From Deltaproteobacteria bacterium (lineage in GTDB: Bacteria; Desulfobacterota; Syntrophia; Syntrophales; UBA2210): DNA of 40,204 bases. Shown piece by piece: positions 23,569-27,157 of the stretch (within the stretch, counting starts at the first letter, position 1; every line of letters begins with the position of its first letter). A model generated the notes under the pieces. The model was not told the origin of the DNA, did not search any database, and saw only the letters and a list, made by a program, of their open reading frames with translations. Both the position numbers and the translations under genes were made by a program. Where the stretch lies: assembly GCA_016933215.1 (NCBI GenBank), contig JAFGBH010000070.1, forward strand, positions 1 through 40,204, in the 5' to 3' direction.

Positions 23569-24183
23569 ATGAAAAAGATCGACAAGAACATTGTCAAAGA
23601 GTATGCGGAAACAATTATTATAGCGATACTTATCGCACTCTTTATACGGACCTTTCTGGTTCAGGCCTTCAAGATTCCTTCAGGTTCCATGAAAGAAACG
23701 CTTCTCATCGGCGACCATATCCTTGTCAACAAATTCATCTATGGAATAAAGATTCCCTTCCTGAGAAAGACCCTGGTCCCCATAAGTGACCCCGAACAGG
23801 GAGACATTGTGGTTTTTATATACCCGATAGATAGATCAAAGGATTTCATCAAAAGAGTCATTGCCGTCGCCGGCGACACCATAGAGATAAAAGACAAAAA
23901 AATCTTCATCAATGGCGCTTACTATAACGAAGGTCATGGAGTCTATACCGATAATCTGATATTTCCACGAGCCATTCAGCCCCGTGATAATTTCGGTCCT
24001 GTAACAGTACCCGAGGGAGCTCTCTTCGTAATGGGGGACAACCGTGACCAGAGCCTTGACAGCAGGTTCTGGGGATTCGTGAATCTGAAAGACGTCCTCG
24101 GCAAGGCCTTTATCATATACTGGTCATGGGACGGGAACAATCATGGTCCCCGCTGGGGCAGGCTGGGACGTATTATAGACTAA
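23569..24183 (+). CDS. lepB: Signal peptidase I
   Basis: 204 residues. It cleaves signal peptides of exported preproteins on the outer face of the inner membrane. One N-terminal transmembrane helix (~14-32) precedes the nucleophile Ser40 in PSGSMKETL. The general-base Lys95 is in FIKRVIAVAGD, and box E reads MGDNRDQSLDSRFWG. All catalytic parts are intact. It closes the export gene run, 11 nt after the DUF456 gene. The next promoter starts 7 nt after its stop. Confidence 0.96.
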   Translation: MKKIDKNIVKEYAETIIIAILIALFIRTFLVQAFKIPSGSMKETLLIGDHILVNKFIYGIKIPFLRKTLVPISDPEQGDIVVFIYPIDRSKDFIKRVIAVAGDTIEIKDKKIFINGAYYNEGHGVYTDNLIFPRAIQPRDNFGPVTVPEGALFVMGDNRDQSLDSRFWGFVNLKDVLGKAFIIYWSWDGNNHGPRWGRLGRIID

Positions 24184-24189
24184 AATGGC

Positions 24190-24218
24190 TTGACATAGAA
24201 TGCGGGCATTGTTATAAG
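24190..24218 (+). promoter_or_regulatory. pyr operon promoter
   Basis: TTGACA (24190-24195), 17-bp spacer, TATAAG (24213-24218). The predicted start near 24225 gives a leader of about 150 nt before pyrR. The sequence AAGTTCTC occurs twice around the start (24217-24224 and 24229-24236). Confidence 0.7.
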
Positions 24219-24259
24219 TTCTCGTTGAAAGTTCTCAGTAAATTGAAAGAGGAAGAGTT

Positions 24260-24295
24260 ATGATCCTTACGTTTCTTTGCATGCAAAATTGTTAA
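24260..24295 (+). CDS. Putative 11-residue pyr leader peptide
   Basis: ATG to TAA encodes MILTFLCMQNC. AGAGGAAGAG (24248-24257) is a good ribosome-binding site. The frame contains a perfect palindrome TTTGCATGCAAA (24276-24287), a possible pause site. The last base of the stop codon is the first base of the terminator's left arm (24295). A ribosome ending translation there would cover that arm. Its value is regulatory rather than as a protein. Confidence 0.5.
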   Translation: MILTFLCMQNC

Positions 24296-24330
24296 AAGGC
24301 CTTCTCATTTAACGGGAAGGCCTTTTTTTT
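24295..24330 (+). terminator. Intrinsic terminator (attenuator) upstream of pyrR
   Basis: AAAGGCCTTC (24295-24304) pairs perfectly with GAAGGCCTTT (24316-24325) across an 11-nt loop, and the right arm runs into eight T (24323-24330). It sits between the pyr promoter and pyrR, so it must be bypassed for the operon to be expressed. Confidence 0.85.
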
Positions 24331-24378: not shown

Positions 24379-24915
24379 ATGACTAAGAAAAAGGTGGTAA
24401 TGGATGCCGAAGGGATAGACAGATCCCTGACGAGGATCGCCTATGAAATTCTCGAAGAGAACAAAGGCATACGGGACCTTGTGGTAATAGGAATACGAGA
24501 GGGTGGCGTATGTCTGGCAGAGAGAATCGCCAAGAAGATATCAAATATTGAAAAAACCGACGTGCCCCTGGGCATTCTTGACATAACGCTCTACCGTGAT
24601 GATGTATTATCGACAGCTAAAAAACCGAAGCTGGGAAAGACGGACATACCTTTTTCCCTGGACAACAAAAAAGTCGTTCTCGTCGACGACGTCATCTTCA
24701 CGGGTAGAACAATACGGGCGGCCATGGACGCACTGATGGATTTTGGAAGGCCGACTCTCATTCAGCTTGCGGTCCTGATCGACAGAGGCCACAGGGAACT
24801 TCCGATACGACCGAACTTTGTGGGAAACAGCCTTCCCTCATCACTCTGGGAAGAGGTGAGCGTCCATCTTGCCGAGATAGAGGGGATAGACGAAGTAGTA
24901 ATCGAAAACATTTAA
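24379..24915 (+). CDS. pyrR: PyrR: pyr operon regulator / uracil phosphoribosyltransferase
   Basis: 178 residues, normal for PyrR. The PRPP loop is [20 protein letters not shown] (~108-127). IREGG (~43-47), [15 protein letters not shown] and the loop preceding VGNSLPSS also match the family. PyrR binds nascent pyr leader RNA in many bacteria and often has uracil phosphoribosyltransferase activity. No recognisable PyrR-binding RNA motif was found in the leader here, so regulation may differ. The Shine-Dalgarno (AGAGGG) is weak and about 12 nt away. It heads pyrR-pyrB-pyrC; pyrB starts 14 nt after its stop. Confidence 0.93.
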
Positions 24916-24929
24916 ATCGAGGCACTACG

Positions 24930-25853
24930 ATGAAATTTGAAAGAAAAGATATACTTGGACTGAAAGATTATTCCAGGGATGAGATCAATTTTATTCTCGA
25001 TACGGCAGAATCCCTCAAGGAAATATCCACACGGAAGATCAAGAAGGTCCCTACTCTCCGAGGCAAAACGGTCATCAGTCTTTTTTACGAGCCAAGTACA
25101 CGGACGAGAACCTCCTTTGAAATCGCTGCCAAGAGATTAAGTGCCGATGCGGTAAATATCACGGCATCTGCAAGCAGCGTCGTCAAGGGTGAGACCCTCA
25201 TCGACACGGCACGAAACCTGGAATCCATGAATCCCGACATCATTATCATGAGACATAGTGCCGCCGGTGCTCCCCATATTCTTGCACGACTGCTGAAACA
25301 TCAATCAATTATCAATGCCGGTGACGGGGCCCATGAACACCCCACCCAGTCTCTTCTGGATATGATGACCATACGGGAAAAGAGGGGTAAAATAGACGGC
25401 CTGAGGGTTGCTCTCATCGGCGATATAGCCCACAGCAGGGTGGCACGTTCCAATATCTACGGTCTTACCATAATGGGGGCCGAGGTGGCACTCTGCGGAC
25501 CTGCCATGATGATGCCGAGGGAAATCGACAAAATGGGCGTCACCGTCCATAACCGGATGGAGGAAGCGATACGGGACGCAGACATTATCATGATGCTCAG
25601 GATCCAGTTGGAACGGCAGAAAAACAACATGTTTCCCTCGGTGCGCGAATACGCAAAGCTTTACTGCCTCACACCCGACAGGGTCAAAATGGCGAAGAAA
25701 AACGTTCTTGTAATGCACCCGGGGCCTATCAACAGGGGTGTGGAAATAGACCCGCAGATTGCCGACGGGCCCTATTCTGTCATTCTTGAGCAGGTTACAA
25801 ACGGTGTCGCCTTGCGAATGGCACTGCTCTATCTTTTGGCGGGAGGAAAATGA
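24930..25853 (+). CDS. pyrB: Aspartate carbamoyltransferase catalytic subunit
   Basis: 307 residues. It joins carbamoyl phosphate and aspartate, the first committed step of pyrimidine synthesis. The carbamoyl-phosphate motif [13 protein letters not shown], then the [14 protein letters not shown] block with the catalytic His, [13 protein letters not shown] and the aspartate-binding [10 protein letters not shown]-type stretch ([13 protein letters not shown]) are all present. No pyrI regulatory subunit follows. GAGG lies 7 nt before the ATG, and its stop overlaps the pyrC start. Confidence 0.97.
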
Positions 25854-27157
25854 TGAGACTACTACTCAAGGGGGGAAGAATAATCGACCCCTCACAAAAT
25901 ATGGATGCGACAATGGATCTTCTCATAGAGAAAGGAACCGTCTCCCGAATAGCAACAACTATCCCCGAAAGAAAGGGAGAGAAAACGGCGGTGATAGACC
26001 TGACCGGTATGATACTAACACCGGGCCTTATTGACATGCATACCCACCTCAGGGAACCCGGACACGAATACAAGGAGACCGTTCAAACAGGGAGTGAAGC
26101 CGCTGTTGCAGGAGGATTCACATCGATCGCCTGCATGGCCAATACAGAGCCAATAAATGACAACCGATCCGTCACGGAGTTCATACTACGACAGGCACAG
26201 GCCGCCGGTATGGCCCGTGTCTATCCCGTCGCCGCGGTAAGCAAAGGTGAGCAGGGTAAATTCCTGACAGAATTCGCCGACCTGAAAGATGCCGGTGCTG
26301 TTGCACTCTCCGACGACGGAAATCCCGTTATGGACAGCAGACTGATGAGAAATGCCCTTGAATACGCCTCCTCGCTCGGAATTCCCATAATATCTCACTG
26401 CGAGGACACGAATCTATCGGCGGGAGGACAGATGAACGAGGGGTATACCTCGACGGAACTGGGTCTCCAGGGTATTCCAAACACCGCCGAACATATTATG
26501 ATTGCCAGGGATATCGCACTTGCCGAGTTTTCAAATGTCTCGGTACACATCGCCCACGTAAGCACCGCCGAATCCGTACGAATAATACGGGAAGCCAAGA
26601 AACGGGGGGTCATGGTGACGGCGGAAACGGCACCCCACTACTTTACCCTCACCGATGAGGCCCTCAAGGAATTCTCCACCAATTACAAAATGTATCCACC
26701 ACTCAGAAAAAATGAGGACGTTGAGGCAATAAAGGAAGGTCTCAAAGACGGCACCATTGATGCCATCGCAAGCGATCACGCACCTCATTCATCGATCGAG
26801 AAGGATGTGGAATTCGAGTACGCCGCGAACGGCATCATCGGTCTGGAAACCTCCCTTTCGGCAAGCCTCATACTGGTGAAAGAAAATGTCCTTTCGCTTT
26901 CCCAGCTCATCGAGAAGATGAGCACAAACCCTTCGGGAATACTCAAGATACCGGGCGGTACTTTAAAGGCGGGATCGAACGCCGACATTACGGTCATCGA
27001 TTTGCAAAAGAAGTGGATCGTGAAGGCCGACACATTCCGTTCGAAAAGCCGCAATACGCCCTTTGAAGGCAGGAAATTCCGGGGCAGAGCGGTTCTGACA
27101 ATTGTCGGCGGAAATGTAAAATACTCGATTCTTTCCCTTCCCGGTCGTAAAATTTAG
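25850..27157 (+). CDS. pyrC: Dihydroorotase (class I, PyrC)
   Basis: 435 residues, the usual length of the class I form. It interconverts N-carbamoylaspartate and dihydroorotate. Metal-site motifs are [28 protein letters not shown] and the catalytic Asp in [10 protein letters not shown], with [10 protein letters not shown] and the C-terminal [10 protein letters not shown]. Tandem ATGs (25850, 25853) follow GGGAGG, and the first overlaps the pyrB stop, so translation is coupled. pyrD, pyrE, pyrF and carAB are not in the window. Confidence 0.96.

Follow-up and report, generated by a model that had tools for sequence, protein, structure and literature searches.

This locus raises the question of how a pyrR-pyrB-pyrC operon is controlled when its leader combines a short open reading frame (ORF) with a strong terminator and the first gene behind that terminator is pyrR itself. 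By "the window" we mean the whole 40,204-nt stretch of DNA that was analyzed, in which the leader and its surroundings are arranged as follows (+, forward strand).

ending at 24183: lepB, the upstream neighbor, of the secDF-lepB operon, just before the promoter
24190-24218, +: sigma70-type promoter read from the sequence (TTGACA 24190-24195, 17-nt spacer, TATAAG 24213-24218)
~24225, +: transcription start (+1), predicted from the promoter position
24248-24257, +: Shine-Dalgarno-like sequence AGAGGAAGAG in front of the leader ORF (SD duplex energy -5.9 kcal/mol)
24260-24295, +: leader ORF of 11 codons, MILTFLCMQNC (ATG at 24260, stop codon TAA at 24293-24295)
24276-24287, +: TTTGCATGCAAA, within the leader ORF
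24295-24330, +: predicted intrinsic terminator, the putative attenuator (hairpin AAAGGCCTTCTCATTTAACGGGAAGGCCTTT at 24295-24325, -17.9 kcal/mol, then a T tract to 24330)
24379-24915, +: pyrR (NCBIfam NF003549, 237.7 bits, cut-off 138)
24930-25853, +: pyrB, aspartate carbamoyltransferase, in the controlled operon (NF002032, 416.8 bits, cut-off 263)
25850-27157, +: pyrC, dihydroorotase, with a 4-nt overlap with pyrB (TIGR00857, 435.1 bits, cut-off 279)

The original prediction had described a promoter, a Shine-Dalgarno sequence, an 11-codon ORF and a strong terminator stacked so that the stop codon shares a base with the hairpin, and each of these elements was found where it had been placed, base 24295 being common to the stop codon and the hairpin. 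Our strict promoter scan requires a T at the last -10 position and therefore missed the window promoter, which was seen by eye and with a looser scan. The T tract and pyrR are separated by 48 nt.

Leader ORF and terminator in related genomes

The PyrR query had matches in all 60 relatives searched, mostly true pyrR genes (66-79% identity); in a few it matched weakly, and only to another phosphoribosyltransferase. The close relatives with names are Syntrophales or "Syntrophaceae" MAGs. We analyzed the position of the ORF in the 48 leaders that had a terminator and a start codon, after removal of near-copies, using dinucleotide shuffles as the null. Start codons cluster about 40 nt 5′ of the hairpin, with an ATG at -42 to -36 from the hairpin core in 27 of the 48 leaders (shuffles: mean 7.7, maximum 15). 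The stop codon lies at the hairpin base (-5 to +1) in 15 of 48 (mean 3.7, maximum 9), and no leader has its stop more than 20 nt upstream of the hairpin (mean 6.7, minimum 1). Within the window's family, the terminator is present in all 18 leaders and a strict ORF test was passed by 12 of them (null mean 1.3, maximum 4) and failed by the other six. A convincing Shine-Dalgarno sequence was not found in one leader, L010. Judged against the shuffles, the leader ORF arrangement is not a product of chance, and the Shine-Dalgarno sequence, short ORF, stop position and terminator foreseen in the original prediction are conserved across related pyrR leaders. A palindrome inside the leader ORF is not conserved among relatives (alignment A2).

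The leader peptides themselves are diverse (for example MILTFLCMQNC, MLLECFAEKGY, MALIFDSKIQT and MKKPLCKYRMT), and no common residue run or repeated codon was found across the 48 leaders. In this comparison it is the position of the ORF that is conserved and not the peptide, as would be expected if the location of the ribosome is what matters. A short ORF beside a terminator is also the general form of attenuators that sense a charged tRNA through particular codons of the leader. We rejected an amino-acid attenuator of this kind for want of conserved codons; the search for another pairing partner of the terminator arm was also negative, and we give this explanation next to no chance of being correct. 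The absence of an obvious antiterminator, noted in the original prediction, was likewise supported by a duplex test, in which mean z was close to 0 in three groups (0.28, 0.40, and 0.02) as compared with -1.1 to -2.1 in Bacillus controls, and antiterminator pairing was rejected on this basis. In the alignment of family leaders the terminator is the sole conserved structure; neither a second conserved element nor 5′ structure was found in these leaders, whose 5′ part is unstructured (mean z +0.34).

Since lepB ends just before the promoter, the hairpin could conceivably be the terminator of the secDF-lepB operon, with the pyrR promoter downstream of it and the ORF present by chance. However, nearly all relatives have a TTGACA-type promoter 5′ of the terminator, leaders where the end of lepB is not just upstream among them, the scan that requires a T at the last -10 position gave no promoter-like match in the 48 nt between T tract and pyrR, and ORF positions exceed those in shuffles. 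We consider this explanation highly improbable.

The PyrR-binding loop and its correlated PyrR residues

In many relatives outside the window's family, CCTTTTAATTTAATCCGGAGAGATTGAAAAAGGA stands directly 5′ of the leader ORF. It is predicted to fold into two 6-bp stems, lower and upper, with a 5′ bulge between them and a CNGNGA loop on top, and this fold is backed by covariation (score 0.376 vs. 0.247 in shuffled alignments, 0/500). Sister-family leaders match Rfam RF00515, two of them above the gathering score and 13 more at 36-51 bits, and their loops closely resemble the Bacillus PyrR loop consensus ARUCCAGAGAGGYU (PMC7430163). The 3′ arm of the loop supplies or abuts the Shine-Dalgarno sequence of the leader ORF in the leaders inspected; in the window, the corresponding position is occupied by AGAGGAAGAG.

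In searches with R1, a covariance model of the leader PyrR loop, 43 of the 80 genomes from the window's order gave one match each; of 198 genomes drawn from the whole phylum, 29 had the loop. All 27 phylum-wide loop loci that were inspected adjoin pyrR, and 26 of them also pyrB within the stretch examined. Geobacter-type leaders have a loop-to-ATG distance of 7 nt in 18 of 20 cases. In the Geobacter-type loci L083-L114 a five-base loop, CGAGA, takes the place of CNGNGA and is followed, mostly 7 nt on, by a tiny ORF (often M--LNS) and then a terminator; on this evidence these leaders are a conserved Geobacter version of the device made up of PyrR loop and leader ORF. In other members of the phylum (L149-L175) and in Nitrospina (L125 and L134-L135), a PyrR loop lies near or abuts a start codon before pyrR, and a terminator often follows. 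An attenuator that couples PyrR to a leader ORF thus looks widespread outside Firmicutes.

The window's own family differs from these relatives. An Rfam scan of the window gave nothing at gathering scores and no RF00515 match; RF00515 hits elsewhere in the same genome reached 24-26 bits against a cut-off of 54 and are noise, as is the sole R1 match at the window locus, which lies on the opposite strand. The genome-wide R1 search placed a loop at the pyr locus in 0 of 19 genomes of the family, and a search of the family's pyr leaders with filters off did not find it. Two weak R1 matches occurred in one family genome (G003); the better one (L137), the one whose surroundings were inspected, has gltX and an acetyltransferase-like ORF nearby rather than a pyr gene, and was rejected. 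The original prediction was therefore right that the window carries no PyrR-type RNA loop. The conserved PyrR-binding RNA that it had named as evidence against its model does overlap this region in sister families, but not in the family to which the window belongs. Because the loop occurs in other families, in other classes and in Bacillus, we read its absence here as loss.

The PyrR protein appears to have changed in parallel. An unbiased scan for columns that loop carriers conserve and the window's family has lost put columns 152 and 153 (B. subtilis numbering) first. The window PyrR has E27, E41, and N152-S153, whereas loop-bearing relatives have mostly K or R at 27, mostly T at 41, and K/R152-N153. 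All 32 loop carriers have the latter pair, compared with 5 of 31 loop-less leaders and 0 of 18 family members, an association with a Fisher p-value of 5e-13 when relatedness is ignored; the tree-corrected test was not significant, as the changes are few and poorly supported, and no pair ran in the opposite direction. Residues 152-153, 27, and 41 may be RNA contacts, as PyrR mutagenesis reportedly indicates. RNA binding by PyrR involves a basic concave surface (PMC7430163). On the comparisons made here, loop and matching PyrR residues have both disappeared from the window's family, while the ORF and terminator persist, and residues 152-153 may help to tell pyr operons that PyrR still controls through RNA from those that it no longer does. 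At four other loci (L008, L014, L029, and L036), the sequence in front of pyrR is unrelated and has no loop or terminator, and the encoded PyrR lacks N153 (KD or KS).

One might argue that the RNA site in the leader has diverged, that the RNA-contact surface of PyrR has altered, and that PyrR still regulates the operon, as pyrR remains the first gene and has had its residues 152-153 altered rather than being lost. However, the terminator is the only conserved structure in family leaders and R1 gave only noise at the window locus, and an enzymatic role can account for the continued presence of pyrR, because the uracil phosphoribosyltransferase gene upp was not found in 79 of 80 genomes of the window's order, the window's genome included (a control search had a match in 12 of 14 well-known genomes). 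PyrR may be the sole uracil phosphoribosyltransferase in most of the order, and pyrR has probably been kept in the window's genome for this activity. Continued regulation by PyrR therefore seems unlikely to us.

Proposed mode of control

We consider it fairly probable (roughly 0.6), from sequence comparison, that this leader attenuates transcription of pyrR-pyrB-pyrC through coupling to translation, and does so independently of PyrR in the window's family. RNA polymerase would start at about 24225 and a ribosome would load at the leader Shine-Dalgarno sequence. If the ribosome reached the stop codon before polymerase had finished the T tract, it would cover the left arm, no hairpin would form and the operon would be transcribed; if no ribosome were at the stop in time, the hairpin would fold and transcription would stop. 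In the ancestral form, represented by many sister families, UMP-bound PyrR would bind the loop that overlaps the Shine-Dalgarno sequence, so that the ribosome is blocked and termination follows. The ancestral device was thus probably one in which PyrR shuts off leader translation. As the window's family no longer has either the loop or the PyrR residues that accompany it, ORF and terminator would be governed without PyrR there, most simply through a race between ribosome and polymerase.

In an experimental test system, termination fell from ~90% to <10% when the stop codon was shifted to a point 5 bp ahead of the terminator, and was full with the stop beyond 27 nt (PMC4824070). Given that a stop near a terminator represses termination in this way, that the window's stop lies at the hairpin base and that no antiterminator was found, read-through that depends on the ribosome is the most likely mode of control in the window. 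A ribosome is, on the other hand, unlikely to catch polymerase in the first ~100 bp unless polymerase pauses (PMC4824070), and for this reason an 11-codon leader would need polymerase to pause or run slowly. Either could result from a shortage of pyrimidines, a slow pyrimidine supply tilting the race toward read-through. U is weakly enriched at the start of the ORF in all loop-less leaders as compared with loop carriers (31% vs. 24%, p = 0.009, uncorrected for relatedness). The window's leader may plausibly sense UTP, as in pyrBI, although we hold true nucleotide sensing to be somewhat less likely than not.

Alternatively, the ORF and terminator may be a relic, that is, an unregulated and partly leaky attenuator that has set a fixed level of read-through since the loop was lost. 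The joint disappearance of loop and K152-N153 fits such a relic, as do the unstructured 5′ part of the family leaders and their lack of a second conserved element. Against it, the ORF position and a strong terminator have been kept in divergent genera of the family, where drift alone would have eroded them unless a fixed level is useful, and we regard a relic as a doubtful, although appreciable, alternative to the translation-coupled attenuator. A fuller scenario for the latter, which we put forward tentatively and at somewhat less than even odds, is that the lineage dismantled the regulatory half of PyrR (the RNA loop and the matching protein surface), kept PyrR as its sole uracil phosphoribosyltransferase, and was left with an ORF and terminator that form a self-contained nucleotide sensor of about 11 codons based on ribosome-polymerase timing.

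The translation-coupled, pyrBI-like model of the original prediction thus keeps its conserved geometry and its lack of both antiterminator and loop in the window, although the leader is not a stray pyrBI-like one. What had appeared an unusual arrangement is explained as the derived state of a widespread PyrR-loop leader, since many sister families share the same leader with the loop. Two states of one device would then be available for comparison: in many Desulfobacterota leader translation is apparently controlled by PyrR, while the window's family would have a form that receives no input from PyrR. The former state supports a little-tested idea, namely that PyrR attenuates by blocking leader translation and not by remodeling an antiterminator, and supplies many natural replicates for testing it.

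Comparison with known systems

The closest counterpart is a proposal that Van de Casteele et al. reportedly made in 1997 (J Bacteriol) for Thermus strain ZO5, in which PyrR stops leader translation and thereby causes attenuation. That system reportedly resembles the window in its pyrR-pyrB-pyrC type of cluster, in a leader ORF that runs into a terminator and in its use of the ribosome in place of an antiterminator. The sister families match this design with the loop included, whereas the window has no loop over the Shine-Dalgarno sequence and its PyrR lacks K152-N153. An RF00515 signal was present in a Thermus control genome. In Mycobacterium smegmatis, PyrR is reported to act on the first gene of the pyr mRNA itself, with no attenuator terminator. 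PyrR would act on translation initiation there as we infer for the sister families, but in the latter the target would be the leader ORF, and in the window such action would be absent. Translational repression by PyrR in M. smegmatis is credited to Fields and Switzer (2007), as cited in PMC13328217.

The pyr attenuators of Bacillus (RF00515; PMC7430163) share with the window a pyrR operon with a terminator in its leader. They rely on pairing between antiterminator and anti-antiterminator, whereas the window has a leader ORF and neither antiterminator nor loop. In E. coli pyrBI, closeness of the ribosome prevents formation of the hairpin (PMC5021804), and there, with the pyrL leader peptide, as in the window, a translatable leader ORF ends at or inside the terminator. 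The window's ORF is much shorter and is followed by pyrR, and the UTP-sensitive pausing of the pyrBI type is putative here. As the window's leader apparently derives from a PyrR-loop leader, its resemblance to pyrBI would have arisen by convergence.
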